A DNA stretch of 11,956 bases from an uncultured Candidatus Altimarinota bacterium (lineage in GTDB: Bacteria; Patescibacteriota; Gracilibacteria; BD1-5; UBA6164): NCBI GenBank assembly GCA_937864995.1, contig CALMDL010000255.1:1-11956 (forward strand). The letters run 5' to 3'. Of the stretch, positions 2,782 to 11,947 are shown one piece after another. Position numbers and translations under genes: made by a program. The notes under the pieces are model-generated. The model searched no databases. It was not told the DNA's origin and saw nothing but the letters and a program-made list of their open reading frames with translations. Numbering within the stretch: the stretch's first letter is position 1; every line of letters starts with the position of its first letter.

Positions 2782-2815
2782 AAAAACAAAAGAAGATTAG
2801 GTCTTCTTTGTTTTT
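2782..2815 (-). terminator. Intrinsic terminator of the 737-aa secreted protein gene
   Basis: A long stem with a 14-base right arm (2802-2815) pairs with 2782-2796 with one bulged A, around the loop TTAGG. Read on the minus strand it overlaps the TAA stop (2816-2814) and ends in a T-run. It insulates this gene from the promoter of the small gene just downstream. Confidence 0.75.
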
Positions 2816-5027
2816 AATAATCATAATAATATTCATCATCATAATTATAAGTTTTAGTTGGAAAAACTTCCTCATAATCAATTGTGTTTGTTGGAGCTTT
2901 TATTTCAGAGCTTCATTTGTAAGATTTTCAATTATTTTCAATTTCAAAATTTACAATTTTTCAAGTATTTGAAATTAAATCAAAAATCATATAAAAATTA
3001 TTTTTATCATTTGATAAATCTATATCAAAATTTAAATTTCAACTTAAATTAGTTCCTAAATAACTATTTAAATATTCATCATTTACTTTAAAAGTATTAT
3101 TTATTTGAGCTTTTTCACTTGTATAATATCATTCACTTTTTATTTCAAAAATATTTTTTCAAGAATTATATAAATTTGCTTTTCAATTTACACTTTTATC
3201 ATCTATCACTAAATCTATATCAAAAATAGGAGTAAATTTATCTGCATATGTATATTCCCAAGTTTCATAATTTAGAGTTGATTCTCTATTTTGAAAATCA
3301 GCTTTTAGATTTAAATCACTTAATTGAAAATCATTATCAAGTTCTCAATTTGCAATTATTAAACCTTTTGAATATTCTCAAGAATAATTATTTTCAAAAT
3401 TAAATTTTGAACCAACTATAGCAAATTTTCAGCTTAAAAATTGTTTATTAGTTGTTAAATCCTTTCAATTATAAGTAACATTTATTTCTTTTAATTTATT
3501 ATCAATATCTGTTTTTCAAGAAATAGTTCAAGTTATATAATCTTTATCTAGATATTCCCAAGTTTCATTGTCATATCATTTAATTGTATAATCAAATTTT
3601 CAAGTTATTACTTTATTATTTAAGTCTAAATTTCAATTAAAATCAGGAGATTTTATATTTAAATCAATAAAGTTGAATTTGTTTGCCGTTGATAATTTTG
3701 ATAATAATTTTACATCTATATCTCAAGAATCAGCATAAAAATTTAAATCTAAACTATTTCTATTTTTAAAGTCAATTTTAAAAAATTCATTTGGATATTT
3801 TTTTTGATTTGGTATAACTTCATAAAAAAATGAAAGCACTTCTTTGTCATTAAAAGTTATATATCATTGATTTTTATCAATTAACTCATCTTTTAATCAT
3901 TCAAATCATAGTGTAGTTGTTTCTCAAGATATAGTTAAATATAGATTTCAAGTTTTTGATAAATCTTTAAGCATATCTTTATATTGAGTTTCACTACAAT
4001 CTTTACCATAGAAAGGGTCAAATTTATTTGCATATTCTTTCATCTTATCACATGCATATTTAGTAGGTTTTATATAATATTTTTCACCTTCTTTTTTATA
4101 TGCTTCAAACATTGGTTTTGCAAAAACTGTATTTAAATCATTAGATATGTTTGCAGGATTAAGATTTTTAATTAATTCTAAAGACATTTTTGTTGCATTG
4201 TCTTCATATTTTATATATTTGTTTTGTTTTGCTATTTCTTCCAATTTATCTAAATATTCTTTTAAATCTTCTACTCATTTTTCGTCAGTTATATTTAATT
4301 CTTTTAGTAATAAATATATATTTCAGTCTTTTGATATAAAGTCTACAAAACTATTTATTTGTAATCTAACTTCATCGTTTCATTTTGGTAGAGCTTCAAC
4401 AATTGCTTTAAATTGTCATTTTAATTGAGAATCAAAATTATTTGTTTTTGATTCATAATCATTTAATTCAAAACTTGATTTAAATTCTCAAAGATTTTCA
4501 TTATTTATTTCTAAGCTTACTTTTAAATCTCAAGTTTGTTCAGAATTATTTAAATCTTCAAATTCTTTTGTTAAATTTTCTATAAAATTTGTGCTTGATT
4601 CAACTAAATTTAATTGAAGTTTTGTAATTTTATTTTCAGCAGTTTTTTTATCAACAGCGCTTATGTTAGATGTTAATATCTCTAAACTTTTATTTTCTTC
4701 TATATCAAATAATGCTATTTGAGTTTTTTGATTTAAATAATTTAGAGTATTTAAAGTTGTTTTATTTTTTAAATTAGAATTTTCTAAAACTTTTTCTAAT
4801 CTTTCTTCTAGCTTTATAAGTAATTCTTCATTATTTTTATTTTTTTCTATAAAAGTATCAATAGCTTTTATATATTGTTGTCATTGGTTTGTTTTATTTA
4901 ATTCATATTTAGATATAGTCATATTTTTTATATATGGACTTTTATCATCATTTGCAAAAGTATTATTAAGTGAAAATAAATTAAAACAAAAGATTGTTAA
5001 AAGGAGAGAGGTAAAAAATTTTTTCAT
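2814..5027 (-). CDS. Secreted 737-aa protein of unknown function, helical N-module plus beta-rich body
   Basis: 737 aa with TGA as Gly. Residues 1-25 are a Sec signal peptide ending TFA before NDD. Residues about 41-102 are a helical module (QQYIKAIDTFIEK, then LEERL and TLNTLNYL) shared with both neighbouring secreted proteins. From about residue 140 onward it alternates beta-strand-like segments with polar turns; the last 300 residues are a long series of amphipathic strands, and the tail is Asp/Tyr-rich (YDDEYYYDY). The mature protein has only two cysteines, C326 and C344, well placed for one disulfide; the upstream gene encodes a DsbA-like protein that could form it (inference). No catalytic motif and no C-terminal membrane anchor are seen. 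The body is vaguely reminiscent of LolA/LppX-like lipid-binding sheets, but I would not assign that. The start follows a hairpin by 4 nt and has no Shine-Dalgarno site. Confidence 0.88.
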
Positions 5028-5031
5028 AAAA

Positions 5032-5061
5032 ATAAGGGTTAAAAATAAATTTTACCCTTAT
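5032..5061 (-). promoter_or_regulatory. Leader hairpin directly before the start codon (copy 1)
   Basis: On the minus strand ATAAGGGT pairs with ACCCTTAT (8 bp), extended by AAAA/TTTT past a one-base bulge, with a 5-base loop. It is followed by TTTT and then the ATG at 5027. The same element with the same spacing precedes the DsbA-like gene. It may be a 5' mRNA hairpin, a DNA operator, or a terminator for the gene upstream; the sequence does not decide. Confidence 0.7.
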
Positions 5062-5089
5062 ATTTTAATTTTTGATTATAAATAATCAA
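5062..5089 (-). promoter_or_regulatory. Promoter of the 737-aa secreted protein gene, with overlapping dyad
   Basis: On the minus strand: -35 TTGATT (5089-5084), a 16-base spacer and -10 TAAAAT (5067-5062). The same boxes and spacing precede the DsbA-like gene, which supports the call. The predicted transcript start falls at the left arm of the leader hairpin. An 18-base dyad, TTGATTAT-TT-ATAATCAA (5072-5089), covers the -35 and most of the spacer and could be an operator; the other copy lacks it. Confidence 0.6.
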
Positions 5090-5119
5090 GTTTAAAGTAA
5101 TGTTATTATTGACTTTATA

Positions 5120-6349
5120 TTATTTTATTTTTTCAATTATTTCTGTAAAATTATCTATTGGATATGCTCATCATAGAATTTCATATTCCAAAGTCTCATT
5201 ATTTATTATAACACTTCCAGGAGTTCAAGTAATTCAAAAAATATCTGCTCATTTTTGCATTTGTGTATTTATTTTTTCTTCAAATTTAGAATTTTCTAAA
5301 CATTTACTTAATTCATCTTTATTTACTCATAATTTTACTGCTTCGTCTATTAAGAAATCTTTATCAGAATTTAGTTTTTCAAAAGCAACTTCAATTAATT
5401 TGTAAAATGAATCACTTCATTTTTGAGTAGCACTACATTCTAAAATTTCCGCAGCAATTAGTGCATTGTTATGAAAATATAAAGGAAAATGATTATATAT
5501 TATATTTAAGTCACTTCAATATTTTTCTTCTAATTTTTTAGTAGTTCAATCATTATGTAATTTTGCACAATAAGGACATTCTAAATCACTATATATTATT
5601 AAACTTAATTTTGCTTTTGAATTTCATTTTATAAATGAATTATTTTTTATATCTTCAATTATAGATTTTTCTATTATTTTATATCATTTTTCGCTTCTTA
5701 TAATAAAAGGATCATAACTAGCTCCAACTTCTAAATAATATTCTCAATTTCAAATTTCAATTAAAAATTCATTTATATTAGGAGAATGATATCAATCTAA
5801 ATTATTATTAGAATCATTACTAACATCAAAATTATTAGTATTAAAAATAAAAATAGGAAGAGCATTTATATTATTTTTTATTAAATATTCTTTTACTCAA
5901 ATATCAGAAAATTCAATTAATTCAATTTTTGAGTTTTTTATAGAATTTAATTTTGTTAACTCATTTAAAATTGAATTAATATCACTCGAAGTATCTTTTT
6001 CATCAAATATAACAGTTATTTCTAAATTCTTTTCAATTTTATTTACTTTTGTACTTACTTTTTTGTAAAGATATGTTAATTTATTTAAAGTGTCTTTATT
6101 TTTAATTTTATTTCAATCTATAATTGTTTTTAATTTTGTTTCTAGATTTTTTAATTTTGTTTTGTCTTCAACTTTTTCAATTAAAGCATCAATTGTATCA
6201 GTATATTTCTTTCATTTAACAGTTTTATCTAATTTACTTTGAGTTAAAAATATTTGTTCACTAATTGAGTTATTTGCAAATGAATACTTAATTGGTAAAA
6301 AATTATAACTAATAAAAAATGCAGTTAAAATAATAAAAATTTTTTTCAT
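5120..6349 (-). CDS. Secreted protein with C-terminal DsbA-like thioredoxin domain
   Basis: 409 aa. Residues 1-25 are a signal peptide (ending YSFA before NNS). Residues 38-98 are the helical module shared with the two genes downstream (KKYTDTIDALIEK, LETKL, TLNKLTYL). Residues about 105-240 look like a second alpha/beta segment (EITVIFDEKD..., LPIFIFN) that may be a degenerate thioredoxin-like fold. Residues about 245-409 are a DsbA/DsbG-type domain: IIYSDLECPYC with active-site C258-P-Y-C261, an extra cysteine pair C305 and C350 in the helical insert, and FGITGTPGSVIIN with cis-proline P377. The family makes or isomerises disulfides in exported proteins, outside the cytoplasm. Both glycines of GTPG context support the code (one is TGA, one GGA). 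No DsbB/VKOR partner is in the window. Its substrates could include the cysteine-paired exported proteins nearby (inference). The promoter lies inside the end of the gene upstream. Confidence 0.92.
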
Positions 6350-6353
6350 AAAA

Positions 6354-6381
6354 AAAGGGTTAAAAATAAATTTTACCCTTT
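6354..6381 (-). promoter_or_regulatory. Leader hairpin directly before the start codon (copy 2)
   Basis: On the minus strand AAAGGGT pairs with ACCCTTT (7 bp), extended by AAAA/TTTT past a one-base bulge, with the loop TTTAT. TTTT and the ATG at 6349 follow. The core from GGGT to ACCC is identical to copy 1 upstream of the 737-aa protein. The seven-T run after the stem also fits an intrinsic terminator for the O-antigen ligase gene. Confidence 0.7.
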
Positions 6382-6382
6382 C

Positions 6383-6410
6383 ATTTTATTTTTTACTTAT
6401 GAATAATCAA
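6383..6410 (-). promoter_or_regulatory. Promoter of the DsbA-like gene, inside the end of the preceding gene
   Basis: On the minus strand: -35 TTGATT (6410-6405), a 16-base spacer and -10 TAAAAT (6388-6383), aligned base for base with the promoter of the next secreted protein gene. The -35 lies in the last codons of the O-antigen ligase gene and the -10 begins with its TAA stop. Confidence 0.6.
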
Positions 6411-7630
6411 ACGAAAATAAACATTAACATTGATAAATAAGTTGCTTCAAATATATGTAAAAATATATTCATAATCATAATCGCAAAAAACATACCAAAC
6501 ATTATTTTAGATTTACTATATAATTTAAATAGTACAGTAAATAATATAGTTATAAATGTGATAAAAAATATAATTCATCATTCAATTAATACTTGTATAT
6601 ACCAACTTTCAGGAATATATTTAAATTCATCAATTTTTGTTTGTTTTTCAGGATATATATTTCTATATGCTGGACCAGATTCAGCAAGTCAAGCTCATAA
6701 TGGTTTCTCTAGAAATCTATTTATTCATATTTCCATTCTATCGAAATGACCAGTTGTAGATGATGTTCTAAATATGATATTTGTTAGTTGATGTTGAAAA
6801 ATAATTCAAAGTAATCATAAAAATGATACTGAAAATATAGTTAATCAAATAAGTAATTTTTTATGATGCCTATATATGTATTTTAAATTTATTAAAAATA
6901 TTAATCATCATGCTGCAAATATTCAAAGTAGAGCACTTCTTGAATAAGTTAATAATACAAGCCAAAATAAAAATATAATACTTGTATAAACATAAAATTC
7001 ATTTTTTTTCTTTTGTAAATATAAATACATAGAAGAAAAAATAATTAAAAAATATGCCATTGCATTTGGTCCATCAAGAATTCATTGAAACCTTCTGATA
7101 CCTGAATTTTCAAGTCAATGATATACTGGAATTCATCAATTAAAAACCCAATTACTTACATAGTCTATATATCAAAACTCAACTAAAAACTCTTCTTTTA
7201 ATCTAAATTTAATAAGTATTCAAAATAGTAATGATAATGCTCAAGAATATACAAATAATGTAATTAATTGTTTAGTATTTATTTTTAAAAATTGAGCTCA
7301 ATGTTTATATATAATCATAACGATTAAAAACATAAAATCATATCTTCAACCATAAATTATACTATTTAATCCAAGTCAATTATACAAAGTTATTCAAACT
7401 CAATAAATTATATAAAATACAACAAGGTAATCTAGAAAATCTAATTTAGGTAATTTCTTTGCCTTTATAAATTCATAAATTAAACTAAAAAAAATAGCTA
7501 CTAAAAGTCATTCTTTTAAGAAAAATCAAACTTTATCAAATCAAGTTATATATCAAAAAAATACTGCGAAAAACACATAAAAAGGAAGTGTTATAACTGC
7601 AAATTTTGTAAGTAGTGTAAATAGATTCAT
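6386..7630 (-). CDS. O-antigen ligase / Wzy-type polysaccharide polymerase family membrane protein
   Basis: 414 aa, with about ten or more hydrophobic helices throughout. The Wzy_C (O-antigen ligase) signature is visible. A membrane helix carries LTYSRSALLG (S230-R231-S232). The large external loop follows, with GHFDRMEIGINRF (H295, R298), then PLGAGLAESGPA (about 310-321) and PESWYIQVLIEGG before the last helices; ES replaces the HN often seen at the equivalent site. Most of these glycines are TGA. The family transfers or polymerises lipid-linked glycan at the outer face of the membrane (O-antigen ligation, capsule polymerisation, or glycan transfer to protein). Which one applies cannot be read from sequence. 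It lies 58 nt downstream of a GT4 glycosyltransferase on the same strand, which fits surface glycan assembly. TAA at 6388-6386 is shared with the next gene's -10 box. Confidence 0.9.
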
Positions 7631-8941: not shown

Positions 8942-9562
8942 ATGAAAAAAATATTATTGTTTTTTGTATTGTTTTTTATGAGTTTTTTAAATGTATATTG
9001 ATTTGAAGTTGATAAATCAAATACAACAGATTCTTCATCTTCAAAATATTTTGATAATAATATAAATAATAATTCATTATTTAGTTCTAAAGAGCTTCAA
9101 ACTCTAAAAGATTCTTGATTAGTTGATTCAAATTGAAATTTAACTGATAAATGAAAAGAAGCAGCTTGAACTGATGCAACTCAATGTTGAAATAATTGTG
9201 CTAAAAGTTTAAAAGCAGCAGCTTGAAAAGCATCTTGAGCTTGATGACCATGAGATTTAACTAGTACTAGTTTTCAAATAGATGTTAATAGTATTTCACC
9301 ATGAATTAAAGCTGAATGAAGTACTACTTCAGAAAAAGTTAATTGGGTTTTGTGATCATTAATTCAAAATATGATGATTTGATTGTGAATATTATCAGTG
9401 TTAATAATGACTATTTGATCTGGTTATATTATATTCCATAATTGACAAGATGAACTTTTGAGTAAAGGTAAATCTATTTTTATGTCATGAGTTTATGCAA
9501 TGATTATAGCTTTAACTTCATATTATCTAATATCTATAATTAGATTTATGCTTTATTCTTAA
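8942..9562 (+). CDS. Pilin-like exported protein 1 (VirB2/TrbC-like two-helix architecture, long ectodomain)
   Basis: 206 aa. Residues 1-20 are a signal peptide (MKKILLFFVLFF...VYG). Residues 21-135 are a Ser/Asn/Gly-rich external region with a cysteine pair C82-G-N-N-C86 and a flexible Gly/Ala stretch (94-104). Helix 1 is about 141-165 and helix 2 about 179-203, joined by the short charged loop HNGQDELLSKGKS (166-178). Signal peptide plus two helices around a short charged loop is the layout of CPR type IV secretion pilins, here with an unusually long N-terminal ectodomain. It is the first gene of a five-gene operon. The ATG at 8942 has no Shine-Dalgarno site and is preceded only by T/A. The loop is less typical than in the next three proteins, so the family call is weaker here. 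Confidence 0.78.
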
Positions 9563-9585
9563 GATTATTATTTATCATTTAAATT

Positions 9586-10134
9586 ATGAAAAAAATATTA
9601 CTTTTAGTTTTTGTGTTTTTATTTTCAATTTTAAGTTATGATATTTCTTTTGCAGCAGCACCTGAAATAAATTGTACTTGAATTCCTGGGTGTGTAGATA
9701 AAGATATGACTAAACCATCTCCACCAAATTTATCAAACAATATATGAGCTAAATTTATGGCTAATGTTATTTGAGAATTTATCCAATTAGTTGCAGTTTT
9801 TGCAGTTTTCGCTCTTATTTTTAGTTGAGTTATGTATTTATTATCTGCTTGAGATGAAGAAAAAGCAAATAAAGCAAAAAAATGGATTATTTGGTCTCTT
9901 GTATGAGTTTTATTATCAATTTCAGCATGGGGTATAATTAATTTTTTAAATAATGTAAGGATAAATAATTGATGATGAGCTTCTTGATCAGCTGCTAGCG
10001 CATCAGTAATAAATTTTAGAATTTGATCTGAAGTTTATGATACAAGAGAAACTGCATGAGATTATCCAATTGTACCAGATTGATATACTGAGTGGCAACA
10101 AGTTACTCCAAGTGAATATATAGCTGTAGAATAA
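9586..10134 (+). CDS. Pilin-like exported protein 2 (T4SS pilin family, with long C-terminal tail)
   Basis: 182 aa. Signal peptide 1-23 (ending SFA before AAP). The short ectodomain has cysteines C30 and C36 (NCTGIPGC). Helix 1 is about 63-86, the loop SAGDEEKANKAKKW spans 87-100, and helix 2 is about 101-121 (IIWSLVGVLLSISAWGIINFL). This core is the best match in the operon to the two-helix type IV secretion pilins common in Patescibacteria. It is unusual in carrying a tail of about 60 residues after helix 2 (GGGASGSAAS linker, then an acidic, Tyr-rich end), which should lie outside the cell if the N-terminus does. It follows the first pilin-like gene by 23 nt and precedes the third by 13 nt. 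Confidence 0.85.
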
Positions 10135-10147
10135 TAATTAAAAAAAT

Positions 10148-10525
10148 ATGAGAAAAATACTATACATAATTATATCTATATTAATATTTTGATATTTTCA
10201 AGATAGTTTTTGAGCTCTTTGAGACTCAACAATAAAAGATTGATTAATTTGAGCTACAAATTCAAATATTTGAGCAGTAAGTTGATCAAGTCCAGCATCA
10301 ATACTTTGATGATTATTTAAATGGTTTAAAACTGAAATCTTTTCTTTGATAATGGTTTTGGCAATTTGAGTATTTATATTTATTGGTATCAGATTTGCAT
10401 CTGCTAGATGAAATCCAGAAGAATTTAAAAAAGCTTGGATGCAGTTAATATATGCTATATTGTGAATATTTTTTATATTTATGGCATGGGGACTTGTAAA
10501 AATAGTAGCTAGTTTAAGAATATAA
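10148..10525 (+). CDS. Pilin-like exported protein 3 (minimal two-helix form)
   Basis: 125 aa, the shortest of the four and the only one without cysteine. The N-terminal hydrophobic stretch 1-22 (MRKILYIIISILIFGYFQDSFG) is a probable signal peptide. It is followed by a Gly/Ser-rich region (23-55), helix 1 (about 63-82), the loop SARGNPEEFKKAWMQ (85-99) and helix 2 (about 100-121, ILGIFFIFMAWGLVKIV). The loop and the AWG near the end of helix 2 resemble the preceding protein (SAGDEEKANKAKKW, SAWG), showing common descent. It starts 13 nt after the second gene and ends 11 nt before the fourth. Its role as a pilin or membrane subunit of a secretion-like apparatus is inferred from family. Confidence 0.8.
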
Positions 10526-10536
10526 TTTTAAAAAAC

Positions 10537-10947
10537 ATGAAAAAAATCTTAATATTAATAGGTATTTTCTTATTTAATATATTTTCTTTTAATTCTGTTT
10601 CTGCTTGAGATTGTGCTTATGATCCAACTGTTAATACTTGACCATTAACAGAAGAATTATCTAAGTGTTTAAGTGATTCAAAATTAGTTAATTCTGATGC
10701 AAAAATAACTGGTTGATTTAAAACTTCAATTAAAAAATGGATAGACAATATTTCATTATTTTTATGAATTTGAGCAGTTTTATGAATTGTTTATGGTTCA
10801 TTTATGTTGACTGTTAGTGCGTGAGAAGATGAAAAAGTTAACAAGGCAAAAGATATTATAAAATGGTCAATTATTGGTTTTATATGACTTATAACTGCAT
10901 CGTTGATAATAAATGTATTAGTAAGAGTTATTTATTCGATTAGTTAA
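10537..10947 (+). CDS. Pilin-like exported protein 4 (T4SS pilin family)
   Basis: 136 aa. Signal peptide 1-23 (ending SVSA before GDC). The ectodomain has cysteines C26 and C44. Helix 1 is about 73-94, the loop SAGEDEKVNKAKD spans 94-106, and helix 2 is about 109-131. The SAG-[DE]-[ED]-[ED]-K-x-NKAK loop is nearly the same as in the second protein, so these two are the closest pair. The mature N-terminus begins Gly-Asp-Cys; there is no lipobox, so it is not called a lipoprotein. It ends only 4 nt before the ATG of the zinc peptidase, consistent with one transcript. Confidence 0.85.
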
Positions 10948-10951
10948 TATT

Positions 10952-11821
10952 ATGTTTTCAAATAAAAATAGTAACTTAATAAAATTATTAATTTTAACTG
11001 TTTTTTTTAGTTTTTTGATTTTTATAGCAAAAAACTATTTTTTTTGATGAAAAATTGATTTTGAAAATAAGATTATAGAAGAAAATTATATTGAGCCAGT
11101 TGTTGATAAAAATATTTCATCTGTTAATATAGAAACAATTAATAAAAAAGTAGAAGATAAGATAATTGATAATCTAACTTCAGCTAATAAATTTAGTTAT
11201 AATTTTATACCTGAGTGACTTTTTTTAGAAAATGATGCTAAACCATATTTTGAATCAATAGATTTATTTTTAAATAATCAAAATATAGAAAAAAAGATAA
11301 GTTTTTTAGAAATATTTTTATACAAAGAGAAATCAGATGTTAGATGAAAAATGCAAAATAAAAAATTAAAATTATTTTGAATTTATAATATGAGCTTGTG
11401 AGAATTTTTATCTGTATCTATTCATGAATTTTGACATTTTTTAGATTTATACATTTTAGAAAAAAAGGTTAGTTTTGATATAAGTGATTATTTTTACTCT
11501 ATTTCTTGGGAAAATACTACTACAATAAAAGCATGACTTGAACAAAAAGATTTTGTATCCGGTTATTCAATGACAAATAAATATGAAGATTTTGCAGAAA
11601 GTTTTACTTATTATATAATTCATAATTCTGATTTTTTAGAAAAAACTAATTGATCTGAAGTTTTGAAACAAAAGTATGATTTTTTCTCAAAATTTGTATT
11701 TAGAAATGATGAATTTAAAACAAGTAATTATAAAACAACTACTGAAATCAAGTCATATTATCGGGATATTACAAAAATAGAATTTTCTTTAGAAAATTTT
11801 TTGCAGTATTTGAAAAAATAG
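10952..11821 (+). CDS. Membrane-anchored zinc metallopeptidase (HEFGH zincin)
   Basis: 289 aa. One N-terminal hydrophobic helix (about 8-31) not followed by a clear cleavage site suggests a signal anchor with the body outside. The catalytic motif is H158-E159-F160-G161-H162-F-L-D, where Gly161 is TGA; H158 and H162 would bind zinc and E159 act as base. Y211-E-D-F-A-E216, about 50 residues on, matches the glutamate region that supplies the third ligand in many zincins with the HExxH...EDFAE arrangement. I cannot name the family more closely. As the last gene of the pilin-like operon (4 nt after the fourth pilin), it may process the pilin-like proteins or cut targets at the surface; both are inference. 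It ends in TAG, the only non-TAA stop in the window. Its codon 271 is CGG, otherwise unused here. Confidence 0.85.
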
Positions 11822-11922: not shown

Positions 11923-11947
11923 ATACTTTTAATTATTTTAAAAGTAT
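11923..11947 (+). terminator. Perfect 10-bp hairpin near the right edge
   Basis: ATACTTTTAA and TTAAAAGTAT (10 bp) flank the loop TTATT, and AATTATTTT follows on the plus strand. It is a better candidate for the end of the pilin-like operon transcript than the hairpin before it. Confidence 0.4.

Follow-up and report, generated by a model that had tools for sequence, protein, structure and literature searches.

The present analysis concerns a block of five genes in a stretch of DNA of 11,956 nt from an uncultured Candidatus Altimarinota bacterium (hereafter the window, which is the entire contig C255 of a source genome of 1.2 Mb, 355 contigs and 85% completeness). Four pilin-like genes, p1 to p4, are followed by a gene for a membrane-anchored zinc peptidase, and this arrangement goes beyond chance, because three of the pilins pass the cut-off of PF18895, the Pfam family of type IV secretion system (T4SS) pilins, and because the genes follow one another in the same way in 57 of 64 informative loci from the taxonomic order of the source genome. 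Recurrence of the block in most examined genomes of that order suggests a multi-part contact structure and not a random gene set. The reading proposed here, to which we would give an even chance, is that p1 to p4 each supply a dedicated VirB2-type subunit to a Patescibacterial T4SS whose genes are dispersed, and that the peptidase is a surface protease trimming or releasing a surface protein.

With positions numbered on the window and open reading frames (ORFs) called under genetic code 25, the five genes lie in series on the + strand, p1 at 8942-9562 (206 aa, loop HNGQDELLSKGKS), p2 at 9586-10134 (182 aa, loop SAGDEEKANKAKKW), p3 at 10148-10525 (125 aa, loop SARGNPEEFKKAW), p4 at 10537-10947 (136 aa, loop SAGEDEKVNKAKD) and the peptidase, with its HEFGH motif, at 10952-11821 (289 aa). 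An earlier note on this DNA had described four pilin-like genes and a peptidase separated by 23, 13, 11 and 4 nt, and the ORF list confirms these gaps, the loop motifs and HEFGH. By simple hydropathy each pilin has three hydrophobic segments, one near the N-terminus and a C-terminal pair that flanks a charged loop, and the peptidase has a single segment at its N-terminus. All four pilins share with the VirB2 type the form of a small exported protein with two hydrophobic helices (hydropathy and, for p4, a hairpin model). The pilin assignment made in the earlier note is borne out by the model search, in which p2, p3 and p4 scored 39.6, 45.3 and 40.1 bits against the curated PF18895 cut-off of 26.6 bits; the three fall below the cut-off of the NCBIfam model NF045849. 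In the Pfam search the p1 sequence of the window had no relevant match, and none to PF18895. Among the aligned p1 rows 9 of 21 match PF18895 and 6 of 21 match TrbC (E <= 0.01), the p1 profile matches the p2 and p4 profiles at 98.1% and 98.6% probability in profile-profile comparison, and a profile that leaves out the p1 of the window detects a first pilin in 57 of 58 informative loci having p2 to p4 before the peptidase. As judged from these profiles, p1 appears to be a divergent relative of the T4SS_pilin family. The predicted model of p4 consists of an N-terminal helix and a two-helix hairpin (mean predicted local distance difference test score, pLDDT, 74; predicted template modelling score, pTM, 0.47), and sequence searches of solved structures with the p2 and p3 profiles gave matches at E above 1 only.

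The peptidase was detected in 72 of 77 searched genomes of the order. The surroundings of all 72 loci were inspected, and removal of 8 limited by a contig edge leaves the 64 informative loci, in 57 of which four pilins stand directly upstream (54 found by rule and 3 added by hand from the listing); the other seven have three pilins, p2 to p4 (G444), one (G408, G410) or none (G403, G434, G440, G441). The outcomes that the earlier note had named against itself, a lack of pilin-profile hits together with loss of the gene order in relatives, or a peptidase lying elsewhere in all of them, were not what was found. Gaps of at most 30 nt, counted up to the first possible start codon and thus sometimes negative, separate p1 from p2 in 57 of 57 blocks, p2 from p3 in 56, p3 from p4 in 57 and p4 from the peptidase in 52. 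For the 228 pilins of these blocks the best match in another genus retained the pilin position in every case (228/228), and the best match in another family did so in 213 of 228 (p1 47, p2 56, p3 57 and p4 53 of 57). Position profiles set all 228 apart by at least 20 bits, which describes the separation rather than tests it, having been built from the same 228 sequences. On this evidence from best matches the four positions are separate and old orthologous subfamilies spanning three families of the order, and the set looks like four subunits with separate jobs, not a recent amplification.

The earlier note had called the ectodomains unrelated, and this stands in part. The outer parts do vary, a signal-like N-terminus and a variable outer part being present in 53-57 of 57 members per position, with outer-part lengths of 72-615 aa for p1 and 111-419 aa for p2 as called (one p1 is cut at a contig edge), but cysteine pairs are kept by position. 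C30 and C36 of p2, a pair of CxGLPGC type, are invariant in 20 of 20 aligned rows, and C26 and C44 of p4 in 22 of 22; p3 has no Cys in the window and is Cys-free in 36 of 57 blocks. The largest outer parts, 615 aa in p1 and 419 aa in p2, are those of G438 (L119), and by eye they are charged and rich in Gly and Ser. The wide range of lengths could be taken to mean that the array serves variation, with tandem-amplified pilins diversifying to fit different hosts, an idea stated for Patescibacteria pilin arrays in PMC12102498, where 441 arrays of 2-11 genes from 383 assemblies, on average 25% identical, are described and adaptation to different hosts is suggested. We regard this as very improbable here, since every position has its own old line of orthologues in three families and no second gene of p1 to p4 type was seen in the blocks. 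In G408 and G410 one more pilin gene follows RNase J; it was considered as a second p4 and rejected, scoring 49-54 bits as p4 vs 98-100 for the true p4. Orthology at four positions likewise counts against arrays existing mainly for variation, and one orthologue per position across the order turns what had been many divergent pilins into a defined parts list, testable for co-assembly.

Secretion genes lie elsewhere in the source genome. The left neighbour of the block is a GT4 gene, and the contig stops 135 nt past the end of the peptidase gene. In relatives RNase J (named by Pfam) lies near the right side of the peptidase in 55 of 72 loci of the order, often followed by a lipoprotein gene, pyrH, rpmH, rnpA and yidC (named by eye). 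Comparison with a close relative makes contig C52, which carries RNase J, a lipoprotein gene, pyrH, rpmH, rnpA and yidC, the likely continuation of the window; aligned to the nearest relative, the window reaches position 2619 and C52 starts at 2633, which leaves about 13 nt between them. The statement that no secretion machinery lies beside the block holds, as no T4SS gene was present among the right-hand neighbours on C52 or elsewhere beside the block in this genome. The expectation of VirB4/VirD4-like ATPases just to the right of the window failed, the neighbours being RNase J and the pyrH-rpmH-rnpA-yidC series instead. VirB4 is found on C335 next to ftsZ and ftsA (by eye), with 88.3 bits to PF19044 and 338.6 bits to NF045971 (cut-off 325), and across the order 75 of 77 genomes have a detected VirB4. 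On C257 a coupling ATPase (PF02534, 45.2 bits vs a cut-off of 20.1) precedes three pilin-domain proteins, two of them with three domains and the third with one. The two triple proteins, at 4842-7178 and 7266-8501 of C257 (L010), contain three tandem PF18895-type domains, and similar ones occur in L220, L224, L237, L238 and L230. A PrgI gene, a gene for a VirB4-N-like protein and a pilin gene lie on C159. Two further tandem pilin genes directly precede leuS (named by eye) on C266 (L011, 15879-16621), and a single pilin on C103 (L013, 2334-2828) is near a PilC/GspF-type gene and PilN/PilO-like genes, the latter named by eye.

The loci in which the block is broken show how its parts behave. An intact p1 to p4 module is located elsewhere in the genome in G403, G434, G440 and G441. 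The G441 module still has the GT4 gene as usual on one side and pyrH on the other; some 21 kb separate it from the peptidase and RNase J, and there the peptidase seems to have left the site of the module. In G385 p1 to p4 are kept between the usual left neighbours and RNase J, and the peptidase was not detected in that genome. Within one genus, G408, G410 and G411 have p1-p2-p3 tail to tail with the coupling-ATPase/tandem-pilin locus (L237, L238, L230), p4 remaining before the peptidase in G408 and G410 and no peptidase being detected in G411; G409 and G412 of the same genus have an intact block. This move of p1 to p3, probably a single event, hints at a functional link with the coupling-ATPase locus. 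Among the stretches inspected, G437 had only a p4-type gene and G388 and G392 had no module. The peptidase occurs apart from p1 to p4 in several genomes, and therefore the pilin module is a cohesive unit and the peptidase a frequent, separable partner. The description of the protease as dedicated is accordingly half right, in that it lies beside the pilins in 57 of 64 loci, but 7 of 64 lack the full set of four upstream and the G385 module has no detected peptidase.

The peptidase itself resembles PF15890 (Peptidase_Mx1), passing its cut-off at 28.2 vs 25.6 bits, with 41 of 42 rows of its alignment matching at E <= 0.01, unlike TIGR04549, to which it scores 33.9 bits, far under the cut-off of 75. 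An HExxH motif with downstream Tyr and Glu, as in PPEP/ATLF (M34-like) peptidases, is present, H158, E159, H162 and E212 being invariant in the 42 rows and Y205 occurring in at least 90%; the roles given to Y205 and E212 are putative. The predicted fold is probably like that of a Pro-Pro-endopeptidase (PPEP) or lethal factor. The catalytic domain of lethal factor belongs to family M34. Compared with that domain and with PPEP-1/Zmp1 and PPEP-3, the protein here has an N-terminal membrane anchor, with the presumed outer domain starting at about residue 78, and the residue before the putative zinc-binding Glu212 is Tyr211, where PPEP-1 and PPEP-3 have Glu. A sequence search of solved structures with the profile of the peptidase yielded a single weak match (E 0.022). 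Among 5.8 billion proteins searched, 512 were relatives at E <= 0.001, of which 120 were listed. Of 49 named relatives identified through the peptidase, 41 are from Candidatus Gracilibacteria and the rest from entries named bacterium, Patescibacteria group or Candidatus Altimarinus; the source genome is itself of Candidatus Gracilibacteria type. No peptidase relative was found in viral contigs, and the block was unmatched in plasmids at distant-blastn sensitivity. Of 379 genomes sampled from the phylum, 31 had the peptidase, namely the source genome, 25 others of its class and 5 beyond the class.

Pilins are also common in other orders of the class (12 of 12 searched genomes), where they form arrays of 3-5 genes. 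Six of the eight arrays with flanks read (L203, L205, L207, L209, L211, L214) adjoin a methionyl-tRNA synthetase gene by eye, and these six are often near type IV pilus pseudopilin genes, again by eye. In arrays of at least four genes outside the order the first gene scores best as p1 in 6 of 6, three of these six first genes being cut by a contig end and one having a margin of 1 bit, with 43-69 bits as p1 vs a minimum of 75 in the 57 blocks. The p3 profile A5 gave at most 61 bits outside the source genome in a phylum sample of 286 genomes, a rough comparison in that A5 differs from the model behind the block scores. Orthology of these array pilins with p1 to p4 was considered and not accepted, and they are called only similar, their scores lying below the range of the 57 blocks.

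Under the proposed reading, each step of which is drawn from family knowledge, p1 to p4 would be four non-interchangeable VirB2-type subunits exported via Sec; each would form a hairpin of two helices in the membrane, the charged loop facing the cytoplasm and the variable N-terminal part lying outside. The dispersed T4SS, with VirB4, the coupling ATPase and tandem-pilin proteins, and the PrgI and VirB4-N-like proteins on three contigs, would assemble them, presumably depending on VirB4, into a hetero-oligomeric assembly, either a fibre or a surface contact complex. The membrane-anchored peptidase, facing outward, would then most likely trim or release some surface protein, be it one of the pilins or a different adhesin, in the manner of Pro-Pro endopeptidases of similar fold. 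A role in host contact is plausible by analogy, because a pilin series in a T4SS cluster of Southlakia epibionticum, of six pilins according to PMC12857230, is essential for growth on its host (PMC10633639, PMC12857230). PMC12857230, a review of late 2025, refers to a T4SS pilus in Patescibacteria as an intriguing possibility. A bolder version holds that the order builds a four-subunit T4SS fibre with a PPEP-like protease that cuts or sheds the fibre or a partner adhesin, forming an attach-and-release switch for host-cell contact; this we consider rather doubtful.

Several observations weigh against the proposed reading, and some of them fit alternatives. The peptidase has parted from the pilins in several lineages, and of the 25 loci from other orders of the class 22 were examined for neighbours, 21 of them showing no pilin in the DNA covered (upstream side 2.6-8 kb in 7 and about 1-1.5 kb in 15). 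The exception is G046 (L024, C21), in which a pilin gene at 100-1017 (306 aa) is back to back with the peptidase gene at 1207-2046, with 189 nt between. Such separation would fit a block that reflects plain synteny near rpmH-rnpA-yidC in a slowly rearranging region, the peptidase having an unrelated surface task, a view that would also agree with RNase J lying near the peptidase in so many loci of the order and with the peptidase being apart from a full pilin set in G403, G434, G440, G441, G408 and G410. Such an explanation is unlikely but deserves to be taken seriously; against it stand both f154 genomes and three f155 genomes (L122, L129, L130), in which RNase J is not the next gene and pilins and peptidase are still together, and also the spacing, since the gap between p4 and the peptidase is mostly at most 30 nt, whereas 52 of 53 gaps from the peptidase to RNase J exceed 30 nt and a single one does not. 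VirB4 and the peptidase are at least 40 kb apart in the four genomes in which they share a contig (G390, G398, G430, G442) and on different contigs in all others. VirB6 is reported absent in Gracilibacteria (PMC12102498), and this is consistent with p1 to p4 being membrane-channel parts that replace the missing VirB6-like T4SS core rather than fibre subunits. The triple-domain pilin proteins encoded next to the coupling ATPase have the look of polytopic membrane proteins and, with six or so membrane helices, could be a stand-in for VirB6, and the C103 pilin matches TrbL/VirB6 weakly (16.8 bits, cut-off 25.9). For p1 to p4 themselves a channel role seems rather improbable, as p2 to p4 are above the pilin cut-off, no VirB6-type match was found for p1 to p4 in a Pfam search of the proteins and the p1 aligned rows, and a signal-like N-terminus with a variable outer part, present in nearly all members, is expected of surface-exposed subunits. 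Further points against the reading of p1 to p4 as T4SS subunits with a trimming protease are that few outer parts of the pilins contain a Pro-Pro pair (3 to 8 of 57 per position) and therefore Pro-Pro cutting in the pilins is not indicated, and that neither the peptidase model nor the p4 model had a fold match at E <= 0.001 in Foldseek, so that p4 had none to solved VirB2-type pilins at that level.

Among known systems the block is most readily compared with the Patescibacteria VirB2-type arrays, with which it shares tandem pilins of divergent sequence and a source genome that also encodes a monoderm-type VirB4 and a coupling ATPase. The suggestion of an undescribed system was too strong, since arrays of 2-11 pilins and the essential one of S. 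epibionticum are published (PMC12102498, PMC10633639, PMC12857230). Unlike the series of S. epibionticum, as described in those papers, there are here four fixed orthologous positions apart from VirB4, followed by a zinc peptidase. New, as far as a search of the open-access literature shows, are three features, namely orthology at four fixed positions across the order, a location of its own near rpmH-rnpA-yidC, and a peptidase as partner; no paper linking a pilin array with a surface protease was found there, supplements and subscription papers not being covered. The finding points to a surface protease as partner of the pilin set. VirB4 of this genome matches CedB of the archaeal Ced-type DNA import system weakly (64.1 bits vs a cut-off of 700), and the fold matches of p4 include, without significance (E 4.9), a conjugation pilus subunit from Aeropyrum pernix. 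These matches are not evidence of Ced membership, and no Ced gene set was sought.

Some minor features of the window may be added. A scan for promoters and terminators gave no excess of promoter-like sites over shuffles and no terminators, and a 10-bp A/T-rich hairpin at 11923 was dropped as a terminator since comparable stems outdid most shuffled sequences in no more than 7 of 51 loci. A DsbA-like thioredoxin protein with a long N-terminal part is encoded at 5120-6349. A Dsb link between this gene (cluster c22) and the p2 and p4 Cys pairs was likewise dropped, the gene being near the block in only 5 of 72 loci. The frame open at 1-2328 resembles a continuation of a giant exported protein on C266 (L011, 2-10555, 3518 aa), which runs off its contig. 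The ends of C255 and C266 overlap by 214 nt at 93.9% identity, and the two contigs seem to be neighbours split by strain variation. Finally, 2814-5027 encodes an exported protein of 737 aa with no Pfam match, relatives of which (cluster c9) occur close to the block in 18 loci, each from family f1.

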